Positions 9,788-26,429 of a DNA stretch of 27,041 bases are shown here, piece by piece (position 1 is the stretch's first letter; every line of letters begins with the position of its first letter). The notes beneath the pieces were generated by a model. The model saw only the letters and a list, made by a program, of their open reading frames with translations, was not told the origin of the DNA and did no database searches. Position numbers and translations under genes: made by a program. This stretch comes from a virus. The stretch is from positions 1 to 27,041 of IMG/VR virus record IMGVR_UViG_3300007735_000557. The stretch is one strand, 5' to 3'.

Positions 9788-9897
9788 AATCAGTTTTGAT
9801 ACCTATCAAACCTAAATTGACACGCTGTGAAATTCTTGGCGTATGTCAGTCCAAACACAACCCAGCCTGCAACAAACAATGTAGGAGAGCTGAATGA
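9784..9897 (+). CDS. Tiny cysteine-containing protein
   Basis: This 37-residue frame is linked by ATGA overlaps at both ends (with the 47-residue gene and the 91-residue gene). The two couplings in a row are the main evidence. It is basic and has four cysteines (15, 21, 29, 33) in CEILGVCQSKHNPACNKQC, which could bind a metal ion. No family is recognised. Confidence 0.5.
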   Translation: MKSVLIPIKPKLTRCEILGVCQSKHNPACNKQCRRAE

Positions 9898-10524: not shown

Positions 10525-10525
10525 C

Positions 10526-11272
10526 ATGGCATTCGACCTATCATCCATCTCCAAAACCAAACGTGTACGCTCACCCAAGATTGTGGTGGTGGGCCAAGGC
10601 AAGATTGGCAAGACCACTTTCGCGGCTATGGCTCCCAACGCCATTGGCATCCTGACTGAAGACGGCGCTGATGCGGTGGACGCAAACGCCTTCCCATTGG
10701 CTGCCAGCCTGCCCGAGGTTTATGCCGCCATCGACACGCTGATCAACCAAAAGCATGACTTCCAGACCTTGTTCATTGACAGTCTGGATTGGCTCGAACC
10801 CATGATCCAAGAGTATGTGTGCAAGCAGAACAATTGGAAGAACATTGAAGCACCAGGCTTCGGCAAGGGCTACGTTGCCGCCGCCGAGGAATGGCGTAAC
10901 CTGTTGTCTGGCCTAGAAGTCCTGCGTTCAGCCAAGGGCATGGGCATCATCCTGATTGCCCACGACAAGATCAAGCGCATAGAAGACCCGTTGACCGAGG
11001 GCTATGACAGCCATGTCCTTAAACTGCACGACAAAGCCGCTGGCCTAGTGCAAGAGTGGGCAGATGTCATTGGCTACGCAGGCTACCGCATTTTTACAAG
11101 CAAGACAGACGCAGGTTTCTCTAAGAAAGAAACCAAGGCCACGACAACTGGCGAGCGCATCTTGCACGTTGAACCTCATCCGGCTCATTGCGGTGGCAAC
11201 CGCTTTGGCCTTCAAAATATGCCGCTTGACTGGACGGCATTCCAAGCAGCGCTTACACAAGCGCAGTCTTGA
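10526..11272 (+). CDS. Sak4-type single-strand annealing ATPase
   Basis: This 248-residue RecA-core protein (AAA_24 type) has Walker A GQGKIGKTT (residues 23-31), Walker B TLFIDSLDW (Asp85) and an IILIAHDKIK segment (about 138-147) at the sensor position. The family (Sak4, UvsX/Rad51 superfamily) anneals single-stranded DNA in phages and usually works with an SSB-like partner. The next gene encodes a DUF669 protein of that kind, followed by an exonuclease-like gene, so the module is coherent. The start is one base after the preceding stop. The ribosome site is weak, suggesting coupling. Confidence 0.88.
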   Translation: MAFDLSSISKTKRVRSPKIVVVGQGKIGKTTFAAMAPNAIGILTEDGADAVDANAFPLAASLPEVYAAIDTLINQKHDFQTLFIDSLDWLEPMIQEYVCKQNNWKNIEAPGFGKGYVAAAEEWRNLLSGLEVLRSAKGMGIILIAHDKIKRIEDPLTEGYDSHVLKLHDKAAGLVQEWADVIGYAGYRIFTSKTDAGFSKKETKATTTGERILHVEPHPAHCGGNRFGLQNMPLDWTAFQAALTQAQS

Positions 11273-11311
11273 TCACCCCAGTTCGTAACTTAACTTTTTA
11301 GGAAATTTATC

Positions 11312-11839
11312 ATGGCTCAGTTTAATTTTGACGCATCCCAAGTCGCTCCCCAACAGTCCACAGGCCCACTGCCTGCCGGAACTTATTTGGCTCACATCAC
11401 CGAATCTGATGTGCAGCCTTTGAAGTCTGGCAATGGCGAAGGCTTGAAACTTACCTTTGAAATCCTCGATGGACAATACAAAGGCCGCAAGGTTTGGGAG
11501 AACTTGAACATCCGTCACGCCAACGAAGATACTCAACGCATTGCCCAAAGCCAGTTGTCTGCGCTTTGCCATGCCGTGAACGTGATCAAGTTGATGGACA
11601 CTGCCGCCCTGCACTTCAAGCCAGTTCGCATCAACGTGACTGTGCGCGAGGCCCAAGGCATTTACAAAGCAAGCAACAACATCAAGGGCTATGAGGCCGC
11701 AGGCGGTGGCATCAGCGCACCAGTTGCACCAGCTACTGCACCAACGCCTATGCCTACGATGGCAGACACAGTTGCATGGCCTACCGCCGAGCAAGAGGCC
11801 GCCAAGTCCAAAGCACCCGCATGGGCAAGGAAAGGCTGA
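11312..11839 (+). CDS. DUF669-family single-stranded DNA-binding-like protein
   Basis: This 175-residue protein starts MAQFNFDASQVAP, then PLPAGTYLAHITESDVQPLK, then LKLTFEILDGQYKGRKVWEN and LNIRHANEDTQRIAQSQLSA. This is the DUF669 plan of phage proteins that behave like single-stranded DNA-binding partners of Sak/RecT-type annealers. The C-terminus is Pro/Ala-rich and flexible (about residues 130-170), as in SSBs, but ends basic (WARKG) rather than with the usual acidic tip. It sits between Sak4 and the nuclease, 40 nt after Sak4, with TTTTAGGAAA as the ribosome site. Confidence 0.85.
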   Translation: MAQFNFDASQVAPQQSTGPLPAGTYLAHITESDVQPLKSGNGEGLKLTFEILDGQYKGRKVWENLNIRHANEDTQRIAQSQLSALCHAVNVIKLMDTAALHFKPVRINVTVREAQGIYKASNNIKGYEAAGGGISAPVAPATAPTPMPTMADTVAWPTAEQEAAKSKAPAWARKG

Positions 11840-11840
11840 C

Positions 11841-12929
11841 ATGGCCTTGCTTCCACAATCAGTTGTTGATCCTGTGGCTGATGCCATCTTTGCCCATTAC
11901 AAGGCAAAGTATGGCTCAGAAGCACAAAGACCTTACCTTGGTGCATCAAGCATTGGTAAGCCTTGCCTGCGCCAGCATTGGTACTCTTTCCGGTGGTCAA
12001 AGCCTGCCGAGTTCTCTGGCAGGCTTTACCGAGTGTTTCAGTCTGGTCACTTGCAGGAACCTAGAGTTTATGCAGACTTGGCAAGCATTGGCTGCACTGT
12101 CTACCAACTCAACCCCGCCACAGGCCGCCAGTGGTCATTCACCGAAGCGACCACAGGCCATCATTTCCAAGGCAATGCGGACGGCATTGTCACGGGCCTA
12201 CCGCAAGCGCCAAAGTCTCCGCACTTGTTGGAGATCAAGACCGCATCTGACAAGATGTTTAAAGATATGCAAAAAAATGGCGTAAAGAAGGCCAAGCCAG
12301 AGCATTACGCACAGATGCAAATATACATGAAATGGTCAATTGATGAGTTTGGAGAAGATGGGTGTAAACGTGCGCTTTACTTTGTCGTGAACAAAGACAA
12401 TGATGACATCTACACCGAGCGCATAGAATTTAACAAGGATGAGGCACAGGAGATTGTCGCCAAGGCAATGGCGGTGATTACCGCGCCCGAGCCGCCAGTT
12501 GGAGTGTCTACCGATCCAACTTGGTTTGAGTGCAAGTTCTGCGACTACCAGGCTATTTGCCACGGCACAGATGTCCCTATGCCAACGTGCCGTTCATGCG
12601 TTCACGCCACGCCTGAATTGGGTGGCAATGCAGTTTGGTCATGCGCTTCACATAGCACAGTTTTGTCAGAAGGAATGCAACGAAAAGGTTGCAATGATCA
12701 CCGCTACATCCCCATCTTGCTTGCTAAGACAGCCCATCCAGTTGACCTTGATCAAAATGACAATGTGATCTACAAAATGGCAGATGGCAAACAGTTTGTG
12801 AACGGCGACCCAGACAAAAACTTTGACCACATCAGTAGCGCAGAAATCCATGCCTGCACAGACAAGACCGCCTTGGTGGACGAGTTTGCTCTGGGCCTGC
12901 GTAAACAACACAATGCGAGGTTCGTATGA
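11841..12929 (+). CDS. PD-(D/E)XK nuclease, Cas4/AddB-like, with likely Fe-S cluster
   Basis: The ATG at 11841, one base after the DUF669 stop with AGGAAAGG upstream, gives 362 residues. Motifs: LGASSIGKPCLRQHW (Cys42), GNADGIV (Asp114), LLEIKTA (Glu131, Lys133) and a QMQIYM helix (about 158-163). Cys231, Cys234 and Cys240 (CKFCDYQAIC), with Cys42, match the four-cysteine Fe-S arrangement of Cas4 and AddB nucleases. A further Cys-rich tail (from about residue 250: CRSC, then WSC, KGC) is an unusual extra metal-binding candidate. The protein probably resects DNA ends for Sak4 annealing. The next gene starts within its stop codon (ATGA). Confidence 0.85.
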   Translation: MALLPQSVVDPVADAIFAHYKAKYGSEAQRPYLGASSIGKPCLRQHWYSFRWSKPAEFSGRLYRVFQSGHLQEPRVYADLASIGCTVYQLNPATGRQWSFTEATTGHHFQGNADGIVTGLPQAPKSPHLLEIKTASDKMFKDMQKNGVKKAKPEHYAQMQIYMKWSIDEFGEDGCKRALYFVVNKDNDDIYTERIEFNKDEAQEIVAKAMAVITAPEPPVGVSTDPTWFECKFCDYQAICHGTDVPMPTCRSCVHATPELGGNAVWSCASHSTVLSEGMQRKGCNDHRYIPILLAKTAHPVDLDQNDNVIYKMADGKQFVNGDPDKNFDHISSAEIHACTDKTALVDEFALGLRKQHNARFV

Positions 12930-13117
12930 AAACACCATCAATTAACAACATGACATTGCGTGACTTTTTTGCAGGGCAAGCTCTTGCTGGCGATCTCGAA
13001 CAAGGAACGCAAGATAATATGAGCTATAGCTGGTGGCATGAGCCTTCAAAGATTGCAGAAAGGGCATATAAAATTGCAGATGCAATGATCAAGGAGCGCG
13101 AGTTTGATCCTTCGTGA
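12926..13117 (+). CDS. Small phage protein of unknown function (MTLRDFFA type)
   Basis: This 63-residue protein has an ATGA overlap with the nuclease and GAGG five bases before the start. It contains MTLRDFFAGQALAGDL and ends with a helix ERAYKIADAMIKEREFD. Short proteins with an MTLRD(Y/F)FA...IADAM pattern are common in phage replication regions, with no function known to me. Its last codons contain the AAGGAG site used by the helicase gene. Confidence 0.7.
   Translation: MKTPSINNMTLRDFFAGQALAGDLEQGTQDNMSYSWWHEPSKIAERAYKIADAMIKEREFDPS
13091..13096 (+). promoter_or_regulatory. Ribosome site selecting a TTG start for the helicase
   Basis: AAGGAG at 13091-13096 lies seven bases before TTG at 13104, inside the 63-residue gene. 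No ATG or GTG nearby would preserve the conserved N-terminus (ILRDYQSRAV), so TTG is the likely start, coupled to the end of the upstream gene. Confidence 0.65.
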
Positions 13118-14714
13118 CTATCAGTCCCGCGCAGTCACAGACCTGTTTGCATGGTGGACAAAGCACCAAGAAAACACCGACATTCCTCTGTTGGTGCTAC
13201 CCACCGCCGCAGGCAAGTCGGTGATCTGCGCTGAGATTGTGCGCCAGATGTGGGATCAATGGCCTCTGTTTCACCCTCGCACTGTGGTGCTCGTTCCATC
13301 CAAGGAACTGGCAGAACAGAACGCTGCCAAACTTAGGGCCTTGCTTCCCCCAAACATCAGCGTTGGCTTTGTCAGCGCCAGTTTGGGCAAGAAACAGCAC
13401 CAAGCAGATGTGATTGTTGCCACCATTGGCAGCATCCACAGGGATGCTCAACTCTTGGGAAACATCAAGGCCGTGGTCATTGATGAGGCTCATCTGGTGA
13501 GCCAGAAGGGGGATCAAACTGGAATGTTCAGATCGTTTCTGTTTGACCTTAGCCAACTTTGCGAGTTCAGAACTGTTGGCATGACCGCCACGCCGTTTAG
13601 AGGTAATGGTGTTTGGTTGACTGATGGGGATGAGCCATTGTTCACAGGCATTGCAAGCCGAGTCTCCATGCGTGAATTGCTTGATGCCAAGTTCATTGCA
13701 CCACTGGTTCCACCAGACCGGATTGAAACCCGCATCGATGCCAGCCACGTTGGGATAGCCAATGGAGACTATAAGGTTGGCGAACTTTCCCGTGAGGTTG
13801 AAAAATACCTATCCAAAGTAGCCGCAGAAGCTACCAGAATCGCCTCAGAGCGTAAGAAATGGATCGCCTTTACACCGAGTGTCAAAAACGCTGAAAGCCT
13901 TGCAGATCGCTTAAATTATCGAGGCATTGTCAGCGCGGTGGTTTGCGGCGAAACCCCCAAACAAGAGCGTGAAGACTTGATTGCTCAATTTAGAAATGGT
14001 CAAATTCACTGTTTGGTCACTGTTTTGGCTTTGTCGGTTGGCTTTGATGTGCCAGACGTTGACTGCATTATTTGGTGTAGGCCCACGAGGTCGCCAGTGC
14101 TTTATGTACAAGGGATGGGCCGAGGCACTCGAATTGCAGATGGCAAGACTGACTGCCTGGTGCTTGACTTTACCGACACAGTTGAGCGCTTGGGGCCAGT
14201 CGATACCATCCAAGGCAGGGCTAAGAAGAGGTCAGGCACTCAGGAAGCGCCCTTCTGCATCTGCCCTAACTGCGGTGAGCGCAACGCACCCGCAGCTCTT
14301 ATTTGCATTCATTGTGGTGGTCAAATCCGAGAAGAAGAAGCCAAACCACTTGATGCCAAGGTTTCATTGGCAGCGCTCTTGTCAAGTCGGGCGAGTGTAG
14401 ATAATTTTGTTTGGCATGATGTGAGTAGGGTTGCCTATGCCATCCACCGCAAAGAAGGCAAGCCTGATTCATTAAGAGTGGACTATTACGCTGGCTTACT
14501 GATGGTCGCAAGTGAGTGGATTTGCTTCAGTCACGTTGGCTACGCTCGGCAAAAGGCCGAAAACTGGTGGATGCGAAGGGAAAAGAAGTCTATGCCATCA
14601 GGCACACAAGAGGCATTTACATGGACTGTTTTGCATAAAATCAAAGAACCAGACAGGATTTTGACCCGTAAAAATGGAAAATATACTGAGGTAAAAGAAT
14701 ATGAATTTTATTGA
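13104..14714 (+). CDS. Superfamily 2 DEAH-box helicase (SSL2/ResIII type)
   Basis: This is a 536-residue protein. Motif Q/I region LRDYQSRAV, Walker A LPTAAGKS (residues 32-39), DEAH (127-130), motif III TATPF (161-165), helicase-C motifs ending QGMGRGTRIADGKTDCLVLD, then a zinc-ribbon-like pair CPNCG...CIHCGG (about 387-407) and a C-terminal domain. Phage relatives act in DNA repair, replication restart or branch migration (UvsW-like). Here the gene follows the annealing/nuclease module and could process its intermediates. The TTG start has an exact AAGGAG upstream. The end overlaps the next gene by 14 nt. All key helicase motifs are intact. Confidence 0.92.
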   Translation: MILRDYQSRAVTDLFAWWTKHQENTDIPLLVLPTAAGKSVICAEIVRQMWDQWPLFHPRTVVLVPSKELAEQNAAKLRALLPPNISVGFVSASLGKKQHQADVIVATIGSIHRDAQLLGNIKAVVIDEAHLVSQKGDQTGMFRSFLFDLSQLCEFRTVGMTATPFRGNGVWLTDGDEPLFTGIASRVSMRELLDAKFIAPLVPPDRIETRIDASHVGIANGDYKVGELSREVEKYLSKVAAEATRIASERKKWIAFTPSVKNAESLADRLNYRGIVSAVVCGETPKQEREDLIAQFRNGQIHCLVTVLALSVGFDVPDVDCIIWCRPTRSPVLYVQGMGRGTRIADGKTDCLVLDFTDTVERLGPVDTIQGRAKKRSGTQEAPFCICPNCGERNAPAALICIHCGGQIREEEAKPLDAKVSLAALLSSRASVDNFVWHDVSRVAYAIHRKEGKPDSLRVDYYAGLLMVASEWICFSHVGYARQKAENWWMRREKKSMPSGTQEAFTWTVLHKIKEPDRILTRKNGKYTEVKEYEFY

Positions 14715-14901
14715 ACTAAGCGCTATCAAAAGGCATTTGGACAGTCAAGTCAAACAGATTAACACCATCCAAGTCAATTGCCGCCAGTGTAACAATTTTG
14801 AGACAGGCATCTGTCAACAATATGGAGCAAAGCCGCCGCTAGAGTGGATCACTGGCATAGTTGAGTGTGAGCATTGGGAATGGGATCAAATCCCCTTTTA
14901 A
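14701..14901 (+). CDS. Small cysteine-rich (possible zinc-binding) protein
   Basis: This 66-residue protein overlaps the helicase by 14 nt. It has Cys27, Cys30, Cys38 and Cys56 with a nearby His (CRQCNNFETGIC...ECEHWEW), a plausible metal site. GAGG lies nine bases before the ATG. No family is recognised. The coupling suggests that it works with, or is made alongside, the helicase. Confidence 0.65.
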   Translation: MNFIELSAIKRHLDSQVKQINTIQVNCRQCNNFETGICQQYGAKPPLEWITGIVECEHWEWDQIPF

Positions 14902-14910
14902 GGAGACATC

Positions 14911-15096
14911 ATGTTAGAAAAACCACCCTATTCAAAAATCAGCTACCCGTCAATTCCTGCTAAGGATTTTAAGTGGGAGTCCGGATCGGATGTGCAAGCC
15001 CTCTGGCGCAAACATGGTTGGACACCGCCTAGTGAGGGTATGCCGCCACCGCCGCCCGAGCGTGTGATGGATATGCCACTTAGGAGAGTCCGGTAA
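14911..15096 (+). CDS. Short proline-rich protein of unknown function
   Basis: This 61-residue frame has a strong AAGGAG site six bases before the ATG. It has a VQALWRKHGWTPPSEGMPPP segment, probably partly disordered. No domain is recognised. Its TAA stop is immediately followed by the next ATG, and its last codons carry the next gene's AGGAGA ribosome site. Confidence 0.6.
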   Translation: MLEKPPYSKISYPSIPAKDFKWESGSDVQALWRKHGWTPPSEGMPPPPPERVMDMPLRRVR

Positions 15097-15288
15097 ATGC
15101 CACGCCCCAAACCACCCGAGCCATTGATAGGACGACAGATCAGGATGTCTGACAGACATTGGATGATCTTGCAAGAACTTGGCGGCGCTGAGTGGCTGCG
15201 TAAGCAATTGGACAAGAAAGCCAAGATGCCTGCCAAGTATTACCGCCGTGAACTGGACGCACCTTCAAAGAAAGAAACCAATGACTAA
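15097..15288 (+). CDS. Small basic protein, possible DNA binder
   Basis: This 63-residue basic protein starts directly after the previous stop, with AGGAGA upstream. The core IGRQIRMSDRHWMILQELGG followed by AEWLRKQLDKKAK recurs in short phage proteins and has the look of a small helical DNA-binding unit, but no function is established. It overlaps the next start (ATGACTAA). Confidence 0.6.
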   Translation: MPRPKPPEPLIGRQIRMSDRHWMILQELGGAEWLRKQLDKKAKMPAKYYRRELDAPSKKETND

Positions 15289-15472
15289 CCAAAGTGGCTG
15301 GCGCAAGCGCCAAATTCAAATGCCCAAGTTTGACATTTGGGAGCGCGAGAGTTTGGTTGATTTTGCAGGCGAATGTTATGTCAAACTGTGCGAACAGGAT
15401 GACCGCATTCAGCAGTTGCAATGCGATCTGAAGACGGCTATTGAGGCTTATAGGGCGCTGGTTAAAGAATAA
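15281..15472 (+). CDS. Last early gene, small coiled-coil-like protein
   Basis: The ATG at 15281 gives 63 residues: MTNQSGWRKRQIQMPKFDIW, then a helix (CEQDDRIQQLQCDLKTAIEA) with heptad-like hydrophobics. It overlaps the upstream stop by 8 nt and, at its own end, overlaps the convergent endolysin gene by 11 nt. The ribosome site is weak, so coupling is likely. The function is unknown. Confidence 0.55.
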   Translation: MTNQSGWRKRQIQMPKFDIWERESLVDFAGECYVKLCEQDDRIQQLQCDLKTAIEAYRALVKE

Positions 15473-15905
15473 GAGCGCATTCGGCCTGTCTGCGTTTGAG
15501 TAAACCAGGCAAGACCTTACCGCCCCCTTTTGTCCACAGCATCAATTGCTCTTTTGCCCCGTCCCAATCCCCTGCGTTTATCTTGCGTTTGAGGGTTGAT
15601 GTTTGAAGTCTGCCAATTCCAAGGTTGTAGCAAAAATCCACAATAGCGTTGCACTTGCGCTCATCAGTTGCAAGAATTGGACAGTTACGCAAAGCGCCAG
15701 GCAGGTAGGTATGTTCCAGCTCAATCATCAAAAGCGCCCTAGCCGTGGGTTCATCCATTGGTGGGTCTTCCAAAGTCACTTTGCGTTTGTCTGCGTAGTA
15801 GGTAGAACCATAGCCAATCGTAGCCACGCCAGCCGGACACAAGTACGGCTTGGCGCGGTAGCCCTCAAATTGGCGGCACAAAGCGGCAGCTAACTCTAGG
15901 TTCAT
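15462..15905 (-). CDS. Endolysin, T4/P21-type lysozyme (GH24)
   Basis: This 147-residue protein has the GH24 catalytic pattern E-8aa-C-5aa-T: Glu14 in QFEGYRAKPYLC, Cys23, and Thr29 in VATIGYGST. Later family features include FCYNLGIGRLQTSTLKRKIN and a C-terminal helix LPGLLKRRQAEC. It cuts the glycan strands of peptidoglycan. The N-terminus has no signal or SAR segment, so export would need the holin encoded just upstream. The start overlaps the holin-like stop (ATGA). It ends tail-to-tail with the early operon, overlapping it by 11 nt with no terminator visible. The length is usual for the family. Confidence 0.93.
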   Translation of the reverse strand: MNLELAAALCRQFEGYRAKPYLCPAGVATIGYGSTYYADKRKVTLEDPPMDEPTARALLMIELEHTYLPGALRNCPILATDERKCNAIVDFCYNLGIGRLQTSTLKRKINAGDWDGAKEQLMLWTKGGGKVLPGLLKRRQAECALIL

Positions 15906-16396
15906 ATTCCACGCTTGGCAAGAGTTCTATCAAGGAACCAATAATTGATTGTTCCAGACAGCAGGGCTGAGAAATCAGGAGTCATCATGGTTTTAAACAC
16001 TTCTACAGCAGGCGCACCAGCAAGCCACGCATTCCATGCAAACCACACATGAATGAACGACCAGACAAATAGCACCCAATAAGTTACCAGCGGCCTGACA
16101 CTAGCACTCAATGATGCAACCCATCCACCTGCAGCCTTGACCATTTCGGCCTGCTGAGTGATGGCATTATTAAACGCATCCATCACGCCCACATCAATGG
16201 CAGCCTCTCTTTGAGCACCAATTTCAGCCAGCTTTTGCTGACCGCGCAGTTGCTCCAGTTCGCACTGACGGGAAAACATCAAGAGTTCATGCGCTCTTTC
16301 ATTTTTCTTATCGAGCCATTTGAGCACCTCTGGCGCCATCCTAAAGATGCCACCAAAGATAGAGCCTAATAAACCACCACTAAGAATATCTAACAT
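15902..16396 (-). CDS. Putative holin (GTA_holin_3TM-like membrane protein)
   Basis: The ATG at 16396 gives 164 residues; GGAGG lies seven bases upstream, so the TTG two codons earlier is not preferred. An N-terminal glycine-rich hydrophobic segment (LLGSIFGGIF), a charged amphipathic middle (KKNERAHELLMFSRQCELEQ), and two hydrophobic C-terminal segments (VTYWVLFVWSFIHVWFAW and the GTINYWFLDRTL region) with the ending FLDRTLAKRG match 3-TM holin-type phage proteins. It would open the inner membrane for the lysozyme encoded just downstream. The gene pair and 4-nt overlap support a lysis role. It could also be an antiholin or another membrane protein. Confidence 0.72.
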   Translation of the reverse strand: MLDILSGGLLGSIFGGIFRMAPEVLKWLDKKNERAHELLMFSRQCELEQLRGQQKLAEIGAQREAAIDVGVMDAFNNAITQQAEMVKAAGGWVASLSASVRPLVTYWVLFVWSFIHVWFAWNAWLAGAPAVEVFKTMMTPDFSALLSGTINYWFLDRTLAKRGI

Positions 16397-16398
16397 AA

Positions 16399-17130
16399 TC
16401 AATCCTCCGACATATCAGTTGCCGCCAAGTTAATCCGAGTCTTTAAAGCCGCAATATCTTCTGGCTTTTCCTTAAATCCAATCGCTACATACCCTGCAAA
16501 CTTACCCATATCTGGAGGAATCGAGCCTCTACACATAAACTTGATACCTTGCTTTACACCCCACTCACCTACCTTAGACGATGGGTTAAATTCCTCACAC
16601 AGAACCTCACCATTGAGCATAGCCACCATTGCGCCATTGCGGTCTGCGCTTGCGTTGAACAGGGACGTTACAGACCCTTCAACAGCCTTTTCTCGTGACC
16701 CATCAGCGTTCAAAGCTAAGACAGTAGTGCGTGAGTTTGTTGCTAAATTGGCTTTGTGAACCAAAAGAACAACCCCATCTACGTCCTTCATTAAGCTACG
16801 AGCAGGTGCAAGCAATGATTCTTGCTTTGCCAACTGTGGCATCTTATCTTGCGTTGTGATGGCGTGAAGAATGACCTGCCTAGAATCCCATGCAAACCAA
16901 CCAGCAAACGCTAGGAATGACAGCAAAATGACTGTAAACAGCTTAAATGGGCTATCCACCCACTCAATCAAGCCTATGACTTTACCTAATGTAGAGTCGT
17001 CTTTTTTGGCTTCAGTCTTTGGCGCAGGAGCTGGCGCAGCCATCGTCACATTGATAGTTTGTTCTGCTTTGGGTTTGGGTGTCCTGCGCTTAACAGGGGC
17101 TACCTTTGCAGGGGGTTTTTTAGTGACCAT
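16399..17130 (-). CDS. Membrane-anchored protein with a periplasmic domain, function unknown
   Basis: This is a 243-residue protein. A basic Pro/Lys-rich, Ala-rich cytoplasmic N-terminus (about 1-48) is followed by a hydrophobic segment, LFTVILLSFLAFAGWFAW (about 64-81), and a 160-residue soluble domain, probably periplasmic. That domain contains VLLVHKANLATNSRTTVLAL, DGSREKAVEGS and MVAMLNGEVLCEEF, with a second cysteine in KFMCRGSIPP. The fold is not recognised; a sensor-like (GAF/PAS) domain is only a loose impression. It lies in the lysis cluster. The start overlaps the upstream stop by one base (TAATG), and the holin start follows two bases after its stop. It could control lysis timing or exclude superinfecting phage, but the sequence does not decide. 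Confidence 0.65.
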   Translation of the reverse strand: MVTKKPPAKVAPVKRRTPKPKAEQTINVTMAAPAPAPKTEAKKDDSTLGKVIGLIEWVDSPFKLFTVILLSFLAFAGWFAWDSRQVILHAITTQDKMPQLAKQESLLAPARSLMKDVDGVVLLVHKANLATNSRTTVLALNADGSREKAVEGSVTSLFNASADRNGAMVAMLNGEVLCEEFNPSSKVGEWGVKQGIKFMCRGSIPPDMGKFAGYVAIGFKEKPEDIAALKTRINLAATDMSED

Positions 17131-17369
17131 TATGCGTATATATCCAGTTTGCGGTTGGTAAAAATCTCAAGGCTAAGTTGATTGCGTTCTGCCTTCTTGA
17201 CGTACAACTCAAACTCAAGGTCATCAATTTTGTCCTTCACCTTCTTCATTTTCAAGGCTTGTTTGTATTCTTCCGACAGACGCTCTGCCCTGCGTTCAAG
17301 CGCATCAGTCCTGTTTGGATAACCTTCTGGTTGTACCATTGGATACCATTTGTGTATGGGCGGTATCAT
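17130..17369 (-). CDS. Small coiled-coil protein of the lysis region
   Basis: This 79-residue protein has a long charged helix (about residues 25-65: ERRAERLSEEYKQALKMKKV and DKIDDLEFELYVKKAERNQL) likely to form a coiled coil, with no membrane segment. It overlaps its neighbours by 4 nt (ATGA) upstream and 1 nt downstream. Coiled coils are found in phage i-spanins, but a spanin would need a membrane anchor, which is absent. No function is assigned. Confidence 0.6.
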   Translation of the reverse strand: MIPPIHKWYPMVQPEGYPNRTDALERRAERLSEEYKQALKMKKVKDKIDDLEFELYVKKAERNQLSLEIFTNRKLDIYA

Positions 17370-17653
17370 TTCTTTTCACGCTCAAGTGCATCTTTGTATC
17401 CATGAACAACCAAACTTCTGGTTTCTGCTGAATCGGCTGTACCCGCCCACTCGGACAAGTTGTTCCAAATAACTACGTAATCTTGGCTCCTGCAATACTG
17501 AGCATTGTTTTTGAGCCACTGAATCATCTGCTGATGGCGCTCTGATGGGTTGTGAATTGTGTACGCTATCCCATAGAACTCGCGCACATGACAGCCATTC
17601 TTGGCCGTGGCACTGACCAGCGCCAGCAGTGTTAAAAGAATAAGCCAACGCAT
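17366..17653 (-). CDS. Exported (signal-peptide) protein, function unknown
   Basis: This 95-residue protein has a signal peptide: MRWLILLTLLALVSATAKNG, with likely cleavage after ATA (about residue 17). The mature part has two cysteines (21 and 54), possibly a disulfide, and a helical segment NPSERHQQMIQWLKNNAQYC. A lipobox is not convincing because residues before Cys21 are TAKNG, so it is probably soluble in the periplasm. Location in the lysis cluster suggests a role at the envelope (lysis or exclusion). It starts directly after the stop of the 31-residue gene and overlaps the next start by ATGA. Confidence 0.65.
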   Translation of the reverse strand: MRWLILLTLLALVSATAKNGCHVREFYGIAYTIHNPSERHQQMIQWLKNNAQYCRSQDYVVIWNNLSEWAGTADSAETRSLVVHGYKDALEREKK

Positions 17654-17749
17654 TTACCACGCCCAACTCCATGCAATCATGTATGTGCCAAAAATTACAA
17701 AAGCCACTATACAGGCCGCCGCAATGATTGCTTCAGCCCAGTCTTTCAT
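17654..17749 (-). CDS. Very short single-pass membrane protein (31 residues)
   Basis: This frame encodes MKDWAEAIIAAACIVAFVIF followed by GTYMIAWSWAW. It has one hydrophobic span (about residues 8-27) after a short charged start. It fits exactly between neighbours: one base after the preceding stop (17750) and directly before the ATG of the exported protein. The position and clear membrane span support it as a real gene, though no strong ribosome site is visible. It may be a pinholin-like or other small envelope protein; this is a guess. Confidence 0.5.
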   Translation of the reverse strand: MKDWAEAIIAAACIVAFVIFGTYMIAWSWAW

Positions 17750-17750
17750 G

Positions 17751-19808
17751 TTATTGACCAGACAACATACCTGTTGCCATTTGGTTAATATTGGGAGCAA
17801 CATTTCCACCAATTGAGCCAAGTGAGAACGGGCCAAGCAATGCTCTACCTAAAATTGGCAACACTTCTGGCGCTTCTTTTCGCAAAACAGTTCTGATGTC
17901 ATTACCCGCCAACTCTTTAGCAATTCTTTGCAATTTGGTTGGGTCACTTGTTGTTAAAACCCTTGCAATTTCACTGGCAGTAGCTTTGAGTTGTTGATCG
18001 CCAAGGTCTTGAAAATCTCTTTGCAAAGCTCTCATAATGAATTGTGCGCCCGTCATAACTGGTAACTCTCTTTGAGCGCCTTCTTTGATTGTTCTGATTG
18101 CCTCAGTACGTCCAGCAGTTTGTGAGCCTTGCAAAACAACTTTAGAAGTGGTTTTCATTTCCACCTCACTCATTAAGTTACTCATAAACTTGTTATAAGC
18201 CTTTTGACCAGCCTCATCACTATCAAATGTTGCTTTAATAATCCTAACATTTTTAGGATTTTTCAATATATCCATTGCAGGGTTTCCAACTGCGCTCACC
18301 ATTGTGTCTGCTGTTTGAGCGCCACCAAGACGATCAAGAAGACTTTGCATAGTGCCAAGTCTCAATGCGTCTTTTTCAGACTTTGACATGGTTTTTACAT
18401 CATTCAAAAGTGCATCTAAATCAGCAGGTTTTTTGCTAAAAATTGTTCTACCTTCATTCATGGCATCTAAAACAGCAGTATCGTTTGCCCAATAATTTCT
18501 AGCTCTTTTATAAGCAGGATTTGAATTATCTAGTAAATCAATAAATTCACCTCTTGTTTGCTTAATTGCACCAAGTTGTGTGCTGCCTATACCTGATGTT
18601 GGTGATTTTCCTGTATATACCAAATCATCAAGTCCCATTTTCATATAGTGCATGAAAGTAGTGTCTATGTCTGTAACTGGTAATCCTTTATCAGTTACTA
18701 ATTTACCCTCTGCACTAATTTGAACTTTAGGCAATTTGATGCCTTGTTCTTGAGCCAAATTAACTGCTCTGTCATAAGCCTGTTTCATGCTTGGGCGCTG
18801 AAGCAACTCAGTAAATTCGGTAGTAATCTCAACTGGCCTTGGCAAAGCAGCTCCGTACAACTTACCACCAATAGCTGAACGTGCTTCTTTTAAAGCATTG
18901 AACTCATCAAAGTAAGCAGCCTTGTTACCAAACGCAACTTGCATATCGCTTGTCAGGCGCTTAAGTAAACCCTTGTCTCTGTCTTCTAAAAATGTTTTGG
19001 CGGCTTGTTTGCCAGGCCCAGGCAACTGGTTTACAGCATCCAAATATGCCCTTGAATTAGGGCCAATATCTGCAAGCGTATAAGGCTTTCCAGCCTTGTC
19101 TAGGATCATCTTAATGGCCTCATCTACGCCACCAGCGTCTGCGCCTAAAGCCTCTCTAATCATTGCCCTAGATTGATCTACACCCATTCTTTGTGGGTTG
19201 TCAAACATGGCACTTACTGCTGATCTGTAACCTTTACCAATAACAAGCCCAAATCCTTTTGCAATTGGCACAGATGCCATTGCTATGCCAGTTCCTGTTA
19301 ATGCTTCTTTTCCTGTTTCTGGGCTAAACAATTCAGCCTCAGATTCACCAACACCAGAAGTAGCACCCACAAGGCCAGCTAAACCCATTTGACCAATCAT
19401 TGATTGTGGGCCTGGTCGTTTTGTCACAAGTGATGGAACCATTGCGCCACCGACTTGATAGGCAGCAGACCTAAAAGGATTTTCTTGTGAGTATTCTGAT
19501 TGAGCAACTCTCTCAAGAGCAGTACCAACTTCTCTTGGTGTTGGTTGTGGTTCTTGTGGGTTGATTTTCTTTATTGCTTCTGAAATAGCTTTTGGTTCAG
19601 ATGAAATAAAAGACTTTAAAGCACCAATTCCTTCATCTGAAAAGTTTGCTGTCATTCCTTTCAAGAATTGTCCAAAACCACCAGTTTGCCATTGCCCACT
19701 TTGAATTTGACCTAACAATTTCACGCCTTCTGGAGTTATTTTTCCTTCATCTTTTGCAACAAGGAGTTCATTTTGCAGGTCAGTAATTTGATCTTTTAGG
19801 GTTGCCAT
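17751..19808 (-). CDS. Large probable internal virion (ejection) protein
   Basis: This is a 685-residue protein. The N-terminal 90 residues are helical (MATLKDQITDLQNELLVAKD), then a Gly/Ala-rich region with hydrophobic stretches (about 120-200: QMGLAGLVGATSGVGESEA, TGTGIAMASVPIAKGFGLVI). A large helical remainder holds PYTLADIGPNSRAYLDAVNQ, LPGPGKQAAKTFLEDRDKG and AYKRARNYWANDTAVLDAMN. Proteins of this size and composition, coded between fibre and lysis genes, are often injected proteins or virion-associated enzymes in podoviruses. No lysozyme or transglycosylase motif was recognised. GGAG lies seven bases before the ATG. It ends one base before the 31-residue gene. Confidence 0.6.
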   Translation of the reverse strand: MATLKDQITDLQNELLVAKDEGKITPEGVKLLGQIQSGQWQTGGFGQFLKGMTANFSDEGIGALKSFISSEPKAISEAIKKINPQEPQPTPREVGTALERVAQSEYSQENPFRSAAYQVGGAMVPSLVTKRPGPQSMIGQMGLAGLVGATSGVGESEAELFSPETGKEALTGTGIAMASVPIAKGFGLVIGKGYRSAVSAMFDNPQRMGVDQSRAMIREALGADAGGVDEAIKMILDKAGKPYTLADIGPNSRAYLDAVNQLPGPGKQAAKTFLEDRDKGLLKRLTSDMQVAFGNKAAYFDEFNALKEARSAIGGKLYGAALPRPVEITTEFTELLQRPSMKQAYDRAVNLAQEQGIKLPKVQISAEGKLVTDKGLPVTDIDTTFMHYMKMGLDDLVYTGKSPTSGIGSTQLGAIKQTRGEFIDLLDNSNPAYKRARNYWANDTAVLDAMNEGRTIFSKKPADLDALLNDVKTMSKSEKDALRLGTMQSLLDRLGGAQTADTMVSAVGNPAMDILKNPKNVRIIKATFDSDEAGQKAYNKFMSNLMSEVEMKTTSKVVLQGSQTAGRTEAIRTIKEGAQRELPVMTGAQFIMRALQRDFQDLGDQQLKATASEIARVLTTSDPTKLQRIAKELAGNDIRTVLRKEAPEVLPILGRALLGPFSLGSIGGNVAPNINQMATGMLSGQ

Positions 19809-19820
19809 TTTTTTACTCCA

Positions 19821-21350
19821 TTAAGGATTTATGAAATTACCACGTTGCAATGTGTTTCGAGCAGGAGTTGGTGTTCTACCAGCGCCAGTTGTTTGCAATT
19901 GAATTATGCGTTGACGCAGTACATCTGCTTGTGGCTTGTAAAGTGGACTTGTTTGAACATAGTTATTAAACGCATCATTAAATTGTGTTTGAGCAATAAT
20001 TGGATTGTTTTTAACAGTATTAGCATTTTGGGCTAACCATTGATTGCTAAATTTAGCCAAGTCTTGTTCACGCTGAAGTTTTAACTCCAATGTGTCCAAC
20101 AGAATTAAGTTACCCTGCGGAGACTTTGAAAGACTTGGTGAGCCTTGAACAATAAACTTCAAGTCAGTATCAGTTGGATTAACTCCAAGTTTCTTCACCT
20201 CTGGCAAAATCACAGAATTGGAAAATGCTTGGAATGCTTCAGCACCTGCAACTCCTGAAACTTTAAAGTTTGGATCAAATGCTTGTCCTACTCTAGCTAA
20301 TTGAACCATAGTATCAGCACCAAATCCCGTCTTTGTTCCTTCTTCAATCAAGGCTTTCATGCTCTGTACAGTACCAAGAGTGTTTCCTGCAACTCTGCCA
20401 CCCCTTAAATTAGCGGTTAAAGTTTCAGTTAAATCTTCACCAAAACCTTTTTGCATATTGATTGAAACTGGAGCTGTTACATTGACAATTTGTCGTTTTG
20501 CTTCAGTCATTGTTAATGCTTTTTTCTCAACAGCGTCAATGCCTGCTTGACCATATTGAGCAAAAATTTTAGCCGGATCATCAGTTCTATACAAAGCATT
20601 TGCAGCATTTGCTAAATCGCCTGTAAATGGTCTTGGTTTTTCACCGCCAGTAGCAATTTCTTTGTAACTTTGACCAGCCTCAGTCGGAACTGTGTAAAGT
20701 TTCTCACCTTCTTTAAGCGAAACTGTCTCTGGTCTCATTGCTTTTTGTACTGCCAATGCAGCAGTTAATTGAGCAATGCCAGGCGCACCAAGTGCTTGCA
20801 ACTGAGGAGCAACTCTGCGAATGTCATAACTTGGTGCAACAGCAGGAATGTTCTCAGGCATTGGAGTGCCTTGATCTGACATCTGCTGACGTTCCTGAAC
20901 ATCCAACATCTGTGGTCTTTCGGGAATGCCAGGCTGATATGCACGTTGTGCAATAAGTTGGGCTAAAGAAGTCTGTTGTTGTGTTTGCATCTGCTGCGCT
21001 CTAACTTGAGCTGCATCTGATAAATCAAGTAATTTTATAGCCAATGGCGTATTACCCATTTGATTAGCTTGTATTGCCGCCGCTTCCAAAGATTGCGGAT
21101 CACGCAAATTCAAGCCTTGCAATAACTGCGCTTGTTGCGTAATCATCTTCAACTGAGGGTCTTCTATGCCCATAGCACCACCAATAGCAGTACCAAGACC
21201 TTTAGCACCAGCATAGGTCATTGCCGCACCCCTAGAAGCGGGGTCTAGTTGAGCAAGGTCAATGCCTTCTTGCAAAGCACTTCTACGCTGTTGCTCACCA
21301 TACATTTGTGGAGTTAGCCCAAATAAACCCGCTACGATATTTTCTGCCAT
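19821..21350 (-). CDS. Probable internal virion protein, Gln/Ala-rich
   Basis: This 509-residue protein starts MAENIVAGLFGLTPQMYGEQ and continues with QRRSALQEGIDLAQLDPASR, AMTYAGAKGLGTAIGGAMG and a Gln-rich helical stretch (about 100-160: AAQVRAQQMQTQQQTSLAQL). The C-terminal half has PNFKVSGVAGAEAFQAFSN and ends in a basic tail. The N-terminal pattern LFGLTP....Q....L..G..LAQLDP..RG....Y.G...LG.AIGG is typical of ejection-protein candidates in environmental podovirus-like phages. The role is inferred from that and from its place between two other large virion-like proteins. AAGGA lies seven bases before the ATG. A 12-nt gap follows before the 685-residue gene. Confidence 0.6.
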   Translation of the reverse strand: MAENIVAGLFGLTPQMYGEQQRRSALQEGIDLAQLDPASRGAAMTYAGAKGLGTAIGGAMGIEDPQLKMITQQAQLLQGLNLRDPQSLEAAAIQANQMGNTPLAIKLLDLSDAAQVRAQQMQTQQQTSLAQLIAQRAYQPGIPERPQMLDVQERQQMSDQGTPMPENIPAVAPSYDIRRVAPQLQALGAPGIAQLTAALAVQKAMRPETVSLKEGEKLYTVPTEAGQSYKEIATGGEKPRPFTGDLANAANALYRTDDPAKIFAQYGQAGIDAVEKKALTMTEAKRQIVNVTAPVSINMQKGFGEDLTETLTANLRGGRVAGNTLGTVQSMKALIEEGTKTGFGADTMVQLARVGQAFDPNFKVSGVAGAEAFQAFSNSVILPEVKKLGVNPTDTDLKFIVQGSPSLSKSPQGNLILLDTLELKLQREQDLAKFSNQWLAQNANTVKNNPIIAQTQFNDAFNNYVQTSPLYKPQADVLRQRIIQLQTTGAGRTPTPARNTLQRGNFINP

Positions 21351-21359
21351 GATGAATCC

Positions 21360-23930
21360 TTACAAATATAAGCCAAGGTCTTGACTGCCATAATAATCGC
21401 CAGTACCAAATGAGGTTGATGGTGTGCTCATAGCAGTGAATGATGGCACACCGCTAAATAATCCACCTAATAAACCACCCGCAGCCTGACCAAATGCAGG
21501 CGAAGCACCCAAACCACCTAATAATGTTGAATATGGATTAGTTGTAGCGGCTTTTCCAGTTGCAAGTGCCACACTTTGTTCTGCGCCACGCAGTCCTAAT
21601 TGACCAACATTAGCACCCGATTGCGCTTGTTGTTGAGCAAGAGATAAGCCCATAGTAAAAGGTTGTTGAGCAAGTTGCTCTAAGTTCTGAACACCACCTA
21701 AAGCAGTTGCATAAGGCGCATAAGCGGCTTGCTGACCACCATAATACTGACCCATTAGTGCTGAACCTTGGTTCAATAAGCCAGAACCAAAACCAAGTCT
21801 TTGTTGCTCTAATGCTTGTTGACTAGCCAAAGCATTCATACCGAACTGTTGACCTTGAATTCCTAACTGTTGACCTGCACCAATCAAGTTAGAGCCAAAC
21901 TGTTGACCTTGAATTCCTAATTGTTGTCCAGTACCAATCAAATTAGCACCAAATTGTTGACCTTGAATGCCAAGTTGTTGACCAGTTCCAACTAAACCCG
22001 CACCAAACTGAACTTGTTGTTGACCAGCTTGTTGAGCATTAGCCGCCAATTGAGCTTCTTGTTGCGCACGAGCGTTATACAAAGCCTGTAGTTCAGGAGT
22101 TGTAGCACCCAAATTACCGCCTTGAGCAACAGATAGACCTGCACGACCCTGTTGTTGAAGTTTGTTTTGCAAATTAGCTAACTCCAACTCTCTGCCTGGT
22201 TGCAACAAAGCCATCTGCTGATTCAGATAGTTCTGAGCAACTTGTTCAGGAGACTGAGCAAGATATTGACCTCCAAGCGCAGTTAAACGCTGGCTTTCTG
22301 GCGATAATGATAAATAACCCTGACCAAGAGTAGATATTTGTTTACTCTCTGGAGACTGCGTTAAATAATCACCACCAAGTGCAGTCAAACGCTTGCTCTC
22401 AGGAGATTGAGCTAAATATTGAGAAGCAATGTCTCCCAAACGTGTATCAGCTGGAGCATTAAGAATGCCTTGACCTAAACCAAAGAGACTCTGTGCGCCA
22501 GTTTGTAAGGGTGCATAAAGTGCTTGAGCACCCTCTGCTTGTTGCAAACCCTGTTCTGCCAACTTAACCAATCTGTCCTGAGCGTTTTTAGCTTGTGGAT
22601 CAAGGGTATACCCCGCACTGGTCAATCTACCTGTTACTGGATCAGTAACAAATTGAGAAGTTCCAAAACGAGTAGTCATGCCAATTGGTGTGAACGCTGC
22701 AGCTTGTTTGGCGGCAGCAGTTTCGGCATCAATTTTTTGTTGGGCAGCAAGTGCCGCTTCTTTAGAAGTCCCTTGTTGTAAAAGACCAGCACCAGTAGTT
22801 AAGCCACCTGAAAGCAAAGAACCAATTTGAGAGGCAGTTAAGCCGCCTGCCCCCGATAGCAAACCAGTAGTAGCCGCAGTAGTCAAACCAGTAGTAACTG
22901 CTCTAGCGGCAGTAGAAGCGGCAAGATTAGCAGCAGTGAGTCTTGCGGCAGCCGCATCTGCAGCGGCCTTGGCAGTGGCGGCATCTTGGGCGGCTTTAGC
23001 GGCAGCGGCAGCGGCAGCAGCTTTAGTAGCCGCATCAGCACCAATCGCAGCGTCAGCGGCAGCCTTTGCAGCAGCAGCGTCAGCCGCAGCCTTTGCAGCC
23101 GCAGCAGATTTAGCAGCAGCCGCATCAGCGGCAGCCTTAGCCGAAGCAGCATCAGCAGCAGTTTTTGTAGCAGCGGCATCAGCAGTTGCTTTTGCGGTAG
23201 CAGCGTCAGCAGCAGCTTTGGCGGCAGCAGCATCTGCGGTAATCTTAGCCTGAGCCGCAGCATCAGCCGCTAATTTATCTGCTACAGATTTACTTGTAAT
23301 ACCAGCCGCTTCACCTACTGTAACTCCACTGCCACCTGTTAAGTTTGTCAATGTTCCAACTTCAGCACCAGTAGTTAATGCACCTGCAAGACTTGTAGCT
23401 CCTGCAGTACCACCAGCACCACCAAGTGCTAAGTCTGTTGCGGCAAGTTGAGAAGCAGTTAAACCAGTAGTCCCAAGAGTTGTAGCACCAGTGCCAAGAC
23501 CTGCTAATGCTGCACCACCAAATAAACCTAATGCACCTAATGCAAACTCACCCAAACCACTTTCTACTTTTTGTTGTTTACCAGTTCTTTCAAGTTCACC
23601 AGTACCACTATATTGGTTATAAGAACCACCAGTTAGATTGTCGCCAACTTTGTATGTATAGACATTCTGCAAACCACCAATTTGTTGATCCTCACCAGAA
23701 CCAATAACTTGGTAATTAGGTTGAACAATGGTGTCGCCTAAAATGATGGTTTGACCAGGAGGTACATTTACCGCAACACGAGCCGCAACTGCGCCCTCAT
23801 CCAAGCCAACAGCTTGAGCCATTTGAGCAGGAGACACTCCATATTGCTCCATAGCAGAGACAATTTGGGCATCACTCATGCCTGGATTAGCAAGTAAAAA
23901 ATCTACAATTTGTGCGCTAGTAATGGCCAT
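21360..23930 (-). CDS. Large low-complexity virion protein with TolA-like alanine helix
   Basis: This is an 856-residue protein. Residues 1-50 are a small helical domain (FLLANPGMSDAQIVSAMEQY, then GVSPAQMAQAVG). Next is a soluble part, then a Gly/Ala/Thr-rich hydrophobic stretch (about 128-215). Residues about 217-335 are an Ala/Lys/Asp repeat (KAAADAAAAK units), like the long helix of TolA. Four 17-residue repeats (YLAQSPESKRLTALGGD type, about 501-560) and three 18-residue repeats (GTGQQLGIQGQQFGANLI type, about 640-697) follow. It is probably an internal virion or tail-needle-like protein. The ATG has GGAG six bases upstream. It ends nine bases before the next gene. Confidence 0.6.
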   Translation of the reverse strand: MAITSAQIVDFLLANPGMSDAQIVSAMEQYGVSPAQMAQAVGLDEGAVAARVAVNVPPGQTIILGDTIVQPNYQVIGSGEDQQIGGLQNVYTYKVGDNLTGGSYNQYSGTGELERTGKQQKVESGLGEFALGALGLFGGAALAGLGTGATTLGTTGLTASQLAATDLALGGAGGTAGATSLAGALTTGAEVGTLTNLTGGSGVTVGEAAGITSKSVADKLAADAAAQAKITADAAAAKAAADAATAKATADAAATKTAADAASAKAAADAAAAKSAAAAKAAADAAAAKAAADAAIGADAATKAAAAAAAAKAAQDAATAKAAADAAAARLTAANLAASTAARAVTTGLTTAATTGLLSGAGGLTASQIGSLLSGGLTTGAGLLQQGTSKEAALAAQQKIDAETAAAKQAAAFTPIGMTTRFGTSQFVTDPVTGRLTSAGYTLDPQAKNAQDRLVKLAEQGLQQAEGAQALYAPLQTGAQSLFGLGQGILNAPADTRLGDIASQYLAQSPESKRLTALGGDYLTQSPESKQISTLGQGYLSLSPESQRLTALGGQYLAQSPEQVAQNYLNQQMALLQPGRELELANLQNKLQQQGRAGLSVAQGGNLGATTPELQALYNARAQQEAQLAANAQQAGQQQVQFGAGLVGTGQQLGIQGQQFGANLIGTGQQLGIQGQQFGSNLIGAGQQLGIQGQQFGMNALASQQALEQQRLGFGSGLLNQGSALMGQYYGGQQAAYAPYATALGGVQNLEQLAQQPFTMGLSLAQQQAQSGANVGQLGLRGAEQSVALATGKAATTNPYSTLLGGLGASPAFGQAAGGLLGGLFSGVPSFTAMSTPSTSFGTGDYYGSQDLGLYL
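21838..22010 (-). repeat. Three 54-bp tandem repeats within the 856-residue gene
   Basis: Three consecutive copies encode GTGQQLGIQGQQFGANLI-like units of 18 residues; the DNA copies keep CAACTGTTGACC..GAAT.CC patterns on the plus strand, with scattered third-position changes. The set is a coding minisatellite and could vary in copy number between relatives. Confidence 0.75.
22255..22430 (-). repeat. Four 51-bp degenerate repeats within the 856-residue gene
   Basis: Units of 17 residues repeat as YLAQSPESKRLTALGGD, YLTQSPESKQISTLGQG, YLSLSPESQRLTALGGQ and a partial YLAQSPEQVAQ. The DNA is more diverged than the 54-bp set, so it is probably older. Confidence 0.7.
22925..23280 (-). repeat. Alanine-codon-rich repeat encoding a TolA-like helix
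   Basis: On the minus strand GCN codons broken by AAA/GCT/GAT recur, encoding about 118 residues of AAADAAAAKAAADA-type sequence. The long antisense open frames here are a by-product of this composition, not genes. The repeat is likely to be a long, rigid helix. Confidence 0.75.
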
Positions 23931-23948: not shown

Positions 23949-24441
23949 TTATGGCTTAACTGGCCATGTAATTGTCCAAGGAAAGCCTGTTTGGTCAGGA
24001 ACATCCCTCAATGCTTGGCAGTAGTCTTTCCACTCTTGAGATGGTGTCATATCACTGCGAAATCTCCAATCAGTCTCAGCTAACTTAGCATCCCTTGAAG
24101 AACGAACACTCTTAGCCTGTTCAGCATCCTTAGTAGCTTTGTAAGCCACTTCTTGTTCAGAAGCAGTAGTAGTTTCACCATCTAGGACTTGGTCAATGAA
24201 GATTGGGCCAAGAACATATTTTGTGTACCACTTACCATCAATTTGCTCAATACCAGAGCTTGAGAGTATTGATAAACAGTTCCGCCAGTTGCTTGTGCGC
24301 CTTCAAAGACTACATCAGCACCCAAGCCTCTAAGACTTCAGTTGTTGTTATTTCCCATGATGGGCCACCATTGGCTTTTGTGTATGCACGAAATTCACTT
24401 TCGTACATGACTGCGTTTGTTTCTCTAATTCGTACTTGCAT
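23949..24441 (-). pseudogene. Tail/fibre assembly chaperone gene broken by two frameshifts
   Basis: The ATG at 24441 (AGGAA five bases upstream) opens MQVRIRETNAVMYESEFRAY...TTTEVLEA, but the frame stops at 24310. The expected protein continues in a second frame (LGADVVFEGAQATGGTVYQY) and then a third (GIEQIDGKWYTKYVLGPIFI... to EWKDYCQALRDVPDQTGF and WPVKP*), ending at 23949. Joining these gives a chaperone-like protein of about 165 residues with the usual KWYTKYVLGPIF and QALRDVPDQTGFPW motifs of phage tail-fibre assembly/tail chaperone proteins. Both breaks are one-base losses, near 24323-24327 (after GAG-GC) and 24255-24261 (after CAA-GC). They may be real inactivation or sequencing errors; the last frame's GTG at 24149 could give a 66-residue product. 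Confidence 0.8.
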
Positions 24442-24449
24442 GATGTTCC

Positions 24450-26429
24450 TTATGCGATAGCCAAAAAGATGAATGTGCCACCACTTGCATTGATAGCGGC
24501 TGGTGCAGTTAAACTAATCTCAAACCCTAAACTGTAGGTGTCAATATAGTCGGTACTTGTCACTTCAGCGGCTGTGCTGTTTAAAAGCAAGTAAGGGTCA
24601 TTTCCCGCCACAATGCCTCGTGCTGAGTCCCACACATACCAGTCACCTGTGCTGTCTGTGCGCTTAATAAGAACAAACCTTGCCCCTGCTGTAAAGCCAC
24701 AATCAATTTGCTTTGTAGTTGCCGTTCCTGTGTAACTTCCTACTTTGGAAACACCTGCGCAAGTTGCAAATAGGTAGGCAACGTAAGTTGCGCCTGAAGC
24801 ATTAACAGTTGTGTGAGTACCAAGACTGAAAACAGAAGATGTAGGGGCAGTATTATTCCATCTCGTGGCAGAAACAGATGTAGCACCTGTAAGATTTAAT
24901 TCAATTATGTTGGTTGCCCCAAGTGCTGCTTGATATACTTCCCAATCAGCCGCCACACTACGTTTTTTAACAATTATCATTTCAGGCACGACACCCAAAT
25001 TGTGCGTTAGTGTTCTATTGGCCCCCGTCCCTGTATAGCAAACCTCATCCATAAAAGATGGCGCACGTCTAAAAAACCAATTTACATACGTATTGCCACT
25101 TGTATTTGTTTGCCCATTTACATCAGTACCTGTGTTATCAGCACCTAGAGTAACACCACTCATGTCATAAGATAGCAACCCATTTGTTGTGGTTGATGAT
25201 TCTGCATTGGTAGTGGTTGTTCTTAATGCTGGATTTGTTCCTCTCAGCCTGTCCCTAGTAACACCTTCATTTGCTGAACCTGCTGACCTACCTTTAGTAA
25301 TCATAAGGTCAGGAGGAAATCCAACACCTGTAAGTGCATTTGTTGTTCCATTGCCTGTGTAAGCAACAGGACTAAACACACTCGTCCCACTCGTAGGCAC
25401 TTTCATTGGGCCTCTACGAATGGCGATGTAGATGTACGTTCCAGAGCCACTATTTACCTGTTGGTCTAGTGTCTCTAATGAAAATCCTGTTGCGTTAATT
25501 GAAATAAAATTTGTAGCAGTTGTCTCAGCACCAACGTCTTGAGCCATTAAAAATGGGTCATTTCCACCAGTAACAATTCCACGCATATTGTCGTACATTG
25601 TCCATGCTTGCGCTGAATCCTCTCTCTTAATCATTAACCATTGAGGCTCATACCCAAGAGTAATTATGTTACCTGCCGCACCTGTTCCCGCATAAGACCC
25701 GCAAGAGATTACATTGTCTGTACCAGTTAGCCCAAAGCCTCCTGCGTCATTAGCAAACAAATATGCAACAAATGTCTGACCATTTGCGTTTGTGTTGTTT
25801 GCTGTTCCAACCCTAAAAGTCGTGCTAGTTGGTGCTGTTGTCGTAAAGTATGTTGAATCAGAAACTGAGGCATCTGTTGCGTTCAATACAAGATATGAGC
25901 CACTGGCTAATGACCTATGATACACCGCCCAACCACTAGCGGTACTTCTTGATTTAACAAGTATCATTGCTGGCACTGAGCCTAGATTATGAGCAATATT
26001 TCGGTTTGCTCCATTTCCAGTAAAAGTTACAACATCAAAAAATTTTGGTTGCTCTCTAAATGTCCAAGAAGCATAAGTATTTCCAGACCCATTAACATTT
26101 CCACTAGCACCTAATGCAAAACCAGAAGTTGTAAAACTTGTTAAAGTTGTAGCTCCAGTTGCTTGTGCGTTTGTTGCATTTGAAAATAAATAATTAGTTG
26201 CGCCTCTTGAAGTATCAAACAAATAGTGGTCTACAGCACCATTTCTGCTTTTAATCCATGTTAATCCACCTTTAGTAGACAAGTCAATACCATTGGTGAT
26301 GGTCTGTGTAGAGCCGTTGCCTGTGTAGAGGTATGTTGAAAACACATCCTCAATGTACTGAGGAACAGCAGCCGCACCACCACCAAAGGCATCATAAGAA
26401 GCTGCACCACTTGTTGCTTGTAATGGCAT
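24450..26429 (-). CDS. Receptor-binding/tail fibre protein with six tandem modules
   Basis: This is a 659-residue protein. Six modules of about 95-105 residues start at about 35, 136, 246, 357, 465 and 566. Each opens with (Y/F)TGxG, has a P..(M/L)I.K.R...W..Y core, and ends with a G.T(Y/F)..(Y/W).F-type strand. They are arranged ABC-ABC, so residues 34-341 and 356-659 are near-copies: TGNGANRNIAHNLG at 137 against TGTGANRTLTHNLG at 466, and DSAQAWTMYDNMRGIVTGGN at 271 against DSTGDWYVWDSARGIVAGN at 592. The modules resemble DUF7483-type phage fibre domains with a concanavalin-like fold. It probably binds the host surface. It starts four bases after the upstream fibre gene's stop. Confidence 0.8.
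   Translation of the reverse strand: MPLQATSGAASYDAFGGGAAAVPQYIEDVFSTYLYTGNGSTQTITNGIDLSTKGGLTWIKSRNGAVDHYLFDTSRGATNYLFSNATNAQATGATTLTSFTTSGFALGASGNVNGSGNTYASWTFREQPKFFDVVTFTGNGANRNIAHNLGSVPAMILVKSRSTASGWAVYHRSLASGSYLVLNATDASVSDSTYFTTTAPTSTTFRVGTANNTNANGQTFVAYLFANDAGGFGLTGTDNVISCGSYAGTGAAGNIITLGYEPQWLMIKREDSAQAWTMYDNMRGIVTGGNDPFLMAQDVGAETTATNFISINATGFSLETLDQQVNSGSGTYIYIAIRRGPMKVPTSGTSVFSPVAYTGNGTTNALTGVGFPPDLMITKGRSAGSANEGVTRDRLRGTNPALRTTTTNAESSTTTNGLLSYDMSGVTLGADNTGTDVNGQTNTSGNTYVNWFFRRAPSFMDEVCYTGTGANRTLTHNLGVVPEMIIVKKRSVAADWEVYQAALGATNIIELNLTGATSVSATRWNNTAPTSSVFSLGTHTTVNASGATYVAYLFATCAGVSKVGSYTGTATTKQIDCGFTAGARFVLIKRTDSTGDWYVWDSARGIVAGNDPYLLLNSTAAEVTSTDYIDTYSLGFEISLTAPAAINASGGTFIFLAIA

Follow-up and report, generated by a model that had tools for sequence, protein, structure and literature searches.

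A tail-fibre assembly chaperone gene of the Phage_tail_APC type is split in the freshwater phage record IMGVR_UViG_3300007735_000557, of which the whole stretch analysed here, 27,041 nucleotides in length, is called the window. The gene lies on the minus strand (24441-23949) and runs through three successive frames, being one base short at two spots that are 67 nt apart. It is an ordinary member of a known family, and the break in it is confirmed; among the sequences examined the break is private to this record, and it is either very recent or artefactual. We lean, if not strongly, towards the reading that both shortfalls are a local consensus error made when a mixed virome was sequenced or assembled; a real lesion of very recent date is somewhat less likely.

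Organisation of the split gene

The three pieces of the gene, the two breaks and the neighbouring genes are given in Table 1. When ORFs of related loci were used as tblastn queries, the matches passed through window frames -3, -2 and -1 in turn across the chaperone, with frame junctions near 24325-24334 (from 118 queries) and 24257-24262 (from 137 queries). Where the window has three frames, its relatives have a single open one, of about 140-171 codons. Piece 3 alone matches PF16778 (Phage_tail_APC) with an E-value of 7.7e-18 and 64.5 bits, above the Pfam cut-off of 26.6, over residues 49-103 of P0001; thus, the split gene is more than a chance succession of frames. Piece 3 also matches PHROG families of tail fiber and tail fiber assembly proteins. 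The first-pass annotation, made from the letters and their translations, had recognised a tail or fibre chaperone split across three frames and rebuilt by reversing two one-base losses; the domain in piece 3 and the order of the tblastn frames bear out the split, and the window is one base short of its relatives at each of two positions that agree with the earlier ones. A structure search returned 2kz6 (an uncharacterized protein, E 0.00019) and two unrelated phospholipase sequences (E 0.84). In bacterial genomes, 57 stretches fit a pattern, and the 2 of these that encode a chaperone relative are both partial.

Table 1. Features of the split chaperone gene and its surroundings (positions in the window)
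Feature	Positions	Strand	Description
Piece 1	24310..24441	-	ATG at 24441 and N-terminal part, 43 codons, then out-of-frame stop (24312-24310); homology until ~24325
Piece 2	24257..24334	-	Middle part, in the next (second) frame after piece 1: GADVVFEGAQATGGTVYQYSQ
Piece 3	23949..24260	-	C-terminal part in third frame (24260-23952); Phage_tail_APC (profile 1-59 of 60); natural stop (23951-23949)
First break	24323..24327	-	Window one base shorter than relatives
Second break	24255..24262	-	Window one base shorter than relatives
GTG-started 66-aa ORF inside piece 3	23949..24149	-	Contains PF16778 domain
Fibre-type gene, intact	24450..26429	-	Directly upstream; DUF7483; PHROGs 'virion structural protein' (best) and 'tail fiber protein'
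856-aa gene, intact	21360..23930	-	Directly downstream; no Pfam or PHROG match at E 0.001

The upstream gene is called a fibre gene because of its match to the 'tail fiber protein' PHROG and its position, and it is probably the client of the chaperone, which lies directly downstream of it. Of the best 80 fibre relatives, 9 had too short a flank; the other 71, with 600 nt or more of it, all have a chaperone relative within 2.5 kb downstream. Among the best 80 relatives, the fibre is at most 62% alike in its best segment. A domain search found no S74 chaperone domain in the window's own fibre. Judging from family and position, the intact form of the chaperone would be a single protein of about 164 aa, serving to fold the neighbouring fibre. 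In the downstream 856-aa gene, an alanine-rich repeat (22883-23263) is accompanied by long overlapping ORFs in other frames, which are probably a matter of composition.

The breaks compared with relatives

As both breaks lie upstream of piece 3 in the gene, searching with this piece carries no bias toward unbroken copies. It found at least 584 IMG/VR relatives, of which the best 80 were taken; all of these keep to a single frame upstream, 4 of them no farther than the contig end. Among the 295 loci whose piece-3 relative reached an E-value of 1e-8 or better, 283 are open through both spots (204 distinct sequences, as some contigs were taken more than once); of the remaining 12, 8 end at a contig edge and 4 are short, divergent or N-terminally truncated, with a stop close upstream. 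Two loci with such a stop, L354 and L358, look whole and just short, and a third, L426, has a different N-terminus. The fourth, locus L422, holds only the last 26 chaperone codons (1855-1932), behind another gene, perhaps as the scar of a module swap.

The same difference is seen in the DNA alignments, in which 189 of 206 blastn rows have exactly one extra base relative to the window at each spot; 15 rows span one spot or neither, and 2 are alignment exceptions in divergent stretches. A pattern for the first site with one optional base matched at least 119 contigs, with the longer form in all 119 matches listed. Over 201 loci, this pattern gave 147 longer-form matches and 53 loci without a match, and the shorter form was found only in the window's own locus. 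When a script chose the starts, lengths of 140-171 aa were obtained for 139 of 140 distinct relatives, and one, taken without a contig-end check, is 111 aa long; in the 25 best rows, the DNA identity of the chaperone to the window's is 83-90%. No other record in viral_contigs had the same 36 bases between the breaks, in a search that may skip records very close to the window. The comparison with homologues that had been proposed from the sequence thus points one way: the relatives are open and one base longer. The accompanying suggestion to look for indels in runs of T suits the first break but is off at the second, where relatives usually have no T-run.

Age of the breaks

The pN/pS ratio was determined with each piece in its own frame and the pieces unjoined, the sorting of codons with multiple hits being crude. 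A gap-free comparison at 75% or more in all three pieces was possible for 18 of the 140 distinct relatives. Between the window and its 12 nearest comparable relatives, pN/pS is 0.20-0.30; for intact pairs at similar distance (n=69), the median is 0.24, with a 5-95% range of 0.19-0.32. Changes private to the window comprise 5 synonymous and 7 non-synonymous ones, those private to the 18 relatives together 34 and 39. The normal pN/pS of the pieces implies that this sequence was evolving like that of a functional gene up to a very recent time, if not to the present. Two losses without an excess of non-synonymous change would be odd for a gene that had been dead long enough to acquire two lesions. 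The first reading had left a choice between recent decay and sequencing error, and the recency in it is upheld by these ratios.

Accuracy of the record and its closest contigs

Two contigs are about 99.4% identical to parts of the window: 3300011116_000039 (L202) to positions 4410 to 21392, and IMGVR_UViG_3300011113_000008 (L203) to positions 8306 to 21410 (13.1 kb). Over approximately 16.8 kb, up to about 21190, two indels separate the window from these two contigs, one of six and one of three bases, and there is none of a single base. A tblastn frame audit of the whole window, with 3096 ORFs from related loci at E below 1e-10, found no frame junction with more than two queries outside the chaperone in the stretches covered. 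Ten stretches lay without cover, the largest being 1352-2846 (two short ORFs and part of a 655-aa ORF) and 22857-23282 (within the 856-aa ORF). A generally indel-prone record was therefore rejected as the explanation, the only indels relative to the near-identical contigs being of three and six bases and the chaperone being the only well-supported break. Of random pairs of breaks in 27 kb, only 0.5% would be spaced by 67 nt or less; together with the accuracy of the record elsewhere, this implies that the trouble is local. There is no homopolymer of four or more bases at either break.

The viromes that gave L202 and L203 were sampled from Lake Soyang in September and November 2015. They are described as MiSeq data (2 x 300), in which 69% and 74% of the bases reached at least Q30, and the assembler was SPAdes 3.8.2 with the careful option (PMC7553992). 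The window may belong to the same sequencing series.

The near-identity of the window with L202 and L203 stops inside a 509-aa gene, from about 21.19 kb, and the tail modules beyond are different. L203 has an intact, separate chaperone, 90.4% identical to that of the window over 480 nt. Its fibre gene is flanked by GIY-YIG/NUMOD3 genes that resemble homing endonucleases (L203:199-795 and L203:2759-3442), one of which lies between fibre and chaperone. L202 has no chaperone relative at E 1 or better in the 20.9 of its 24.3 kb that were searched; its 999-aa fibre ends in Peptidase_S74, the chaperone of endosialidase. That near-identical backbones occur with at least two other tail modules implies that the strains mix.

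Origin of the breaks

A local consensus error accords with the single frame of the spanning relatives and with pieces that bear the constraint of an intact gene. The harm to be expected from a real loss, the mixing of strains, and the MiSeq and SPAdes origin of L202 and L203 also speak for it; this explanation is weakened by the accuracy of the record elsewhere and by the position of the breaks outside homopolymers of four or more. A route to such an error is plausible. The chaperone is common to strains at up to about 90% identity, next to a fibre that is highly variable, and reads from sister strains could then compete at the chaperone and leave a local error in the consensus. In a real infection, the gene would then be intact and would yield the single fibre-folding protein of about 164 aa described above.

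A real, very recent and private lesion is the second reading, and a substantial possibility, although the less expected of the two. The chaperone would then be dead, either in a defective or minority genome within particles or in a strain living on another chaperone. In favour of a real lesion are the accuracy of the record elsewhere and the differences in tail modules among three near-identical records, one of which, L202, has no chaperone relative in 20.9 kb. However, L202 has the S74 chaperone domain in its fibre and the window's fibre does not. The separate chaperone in L203 and the built-in S74 in L202 fit a rule of one chaperone per fibre, under which a true loss should be harmful; the same is to be expected from the presence of a chaperone beside every fibre relative counted and the lack of S74 in the window's fibre. 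Moreover, no examined relative is broken at these spots (the 12 loci that are not open through both being cut, short, divergent or truncated), and the gene has taken two hits without a sign of relaxed constraint.

The other chaperone on which such a strain might live is not within the 27 kb of the record, which holds no second copy. The record may be a fragment of a larger genome, and a second chaperone outside it is possible; a second chaperone-domain relative is present in 7 of 299 loci (relative at E 1e-6), which counts in favour of a real lesion. In these 7 loci (L329, L187, L018, L019, L349, L375 and L377), the second relative is more distant and lies approximately 1-3 kb from the first, and it aligns with the C-terminal part of the query only. 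L329 was considered as another split gene and rejected, as it has an intact chaperone and a second chaperone-domain relative. L018 and L081 are one 60.8-kb contig (IMGVR_UViG_3300046003_003173), with full-length chaperone relatives near both of its ends.

It is highly improbable that the lesion is both real and tolerated, the DUF7483 fibre being built with the C-terminal domain alone or by means of double -1 shifting; if this were true, the N-terminal part of the chaperone family would be dispensable. Harder still to credit is a reduced working product, in which translation would restart at GTG 24149 to give the 66-aa protein. This ORF keeps the Phage_tail_APC domain (2.4e-18, profile 1-59 of 60), and the second copies in the 7 loci likewise match only the C-terminal part of the query; however, among 140 distinct relatives, 14 of them not placed, just 26 have a GTG at that position. 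On visual inspection, the GTG lacks a strong Shine-Dalgarno-like sequence in front of it, whereas AAGGA stands before the ATG at 24441, and the full length is encoded by nearly all spanning relatives.

Programmed -1 frameshifting at both breaks, which would take the frameshifted tail chaperones known from siphophages one step further, is very unlikely and the least credible of the readings. Each of the two changes has the -1 sense, and the gene is called a tail assembly chaperone, but the relatives have a single frame and one more base at each spot, the window's gene sits behind a fibre gene, and the sole XXXYYYZ heptamer (with A or T for YYY), at 24356, lies about 30 nt away from the first break and is not in register. 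The G/GT tail chaperones that precede the tape measure gene are a different gene. No XXXYYYZ heptamer, the one motif scanned, is present at either break; with 283 of 295 loci open through both spots, no shift is conserved, and programmed frameshifting was rejected for the family. The same had been concluded earlier from the apparent lack of a slippery heptamer, and the interpretation given there is sound as a whole. XXXYYYZ is described as the canonical slippery motif, and PRFect also covers looser ones (PMC10885494).

The split gene carries little weight as a finding, as it belongs to a known family and its break is private to one assembled record. It serves as a warning that a lost or frameshifted chaperone is not safely predicted from a single metagenomic contig. 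More useful is the side result that one phage backbone occurs with alternative tail modules, in which the fibre is accompanied by a separate chaperone or has S74 built in.

Comparison with known systems

A published fibre that needs a chaperone is that of Alteromonas phage V22, where the domain is a different one, DUF4376 (PMC7289586). The nearest known system is the Phage_tail_APC family itself (PF16778; PHROGs 8716, 4912, 8746 and 4628), with which the window shares both the domain in piece 3 and the position of the gene behind a fibre gene. L203 differs from the window in its intact chaperone and in the GIY-YIG genes that flank its fibre gene. In phage records, the sole match was to MW202710.1 (Myoviridae sp. 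ctnlZ23, from Manatee Spring), which covers 67% of the query DNA, toward the 3′ end, at 69% identity. Its product UOF80793.1, annotated as a phage tail assembly chaperone protein and encoded by a single gene of 456 nt, is more distant from the window than the IMG/VR relatives are. The gene is intact in the relatives, whereas the copy in the window is interrupted twice.
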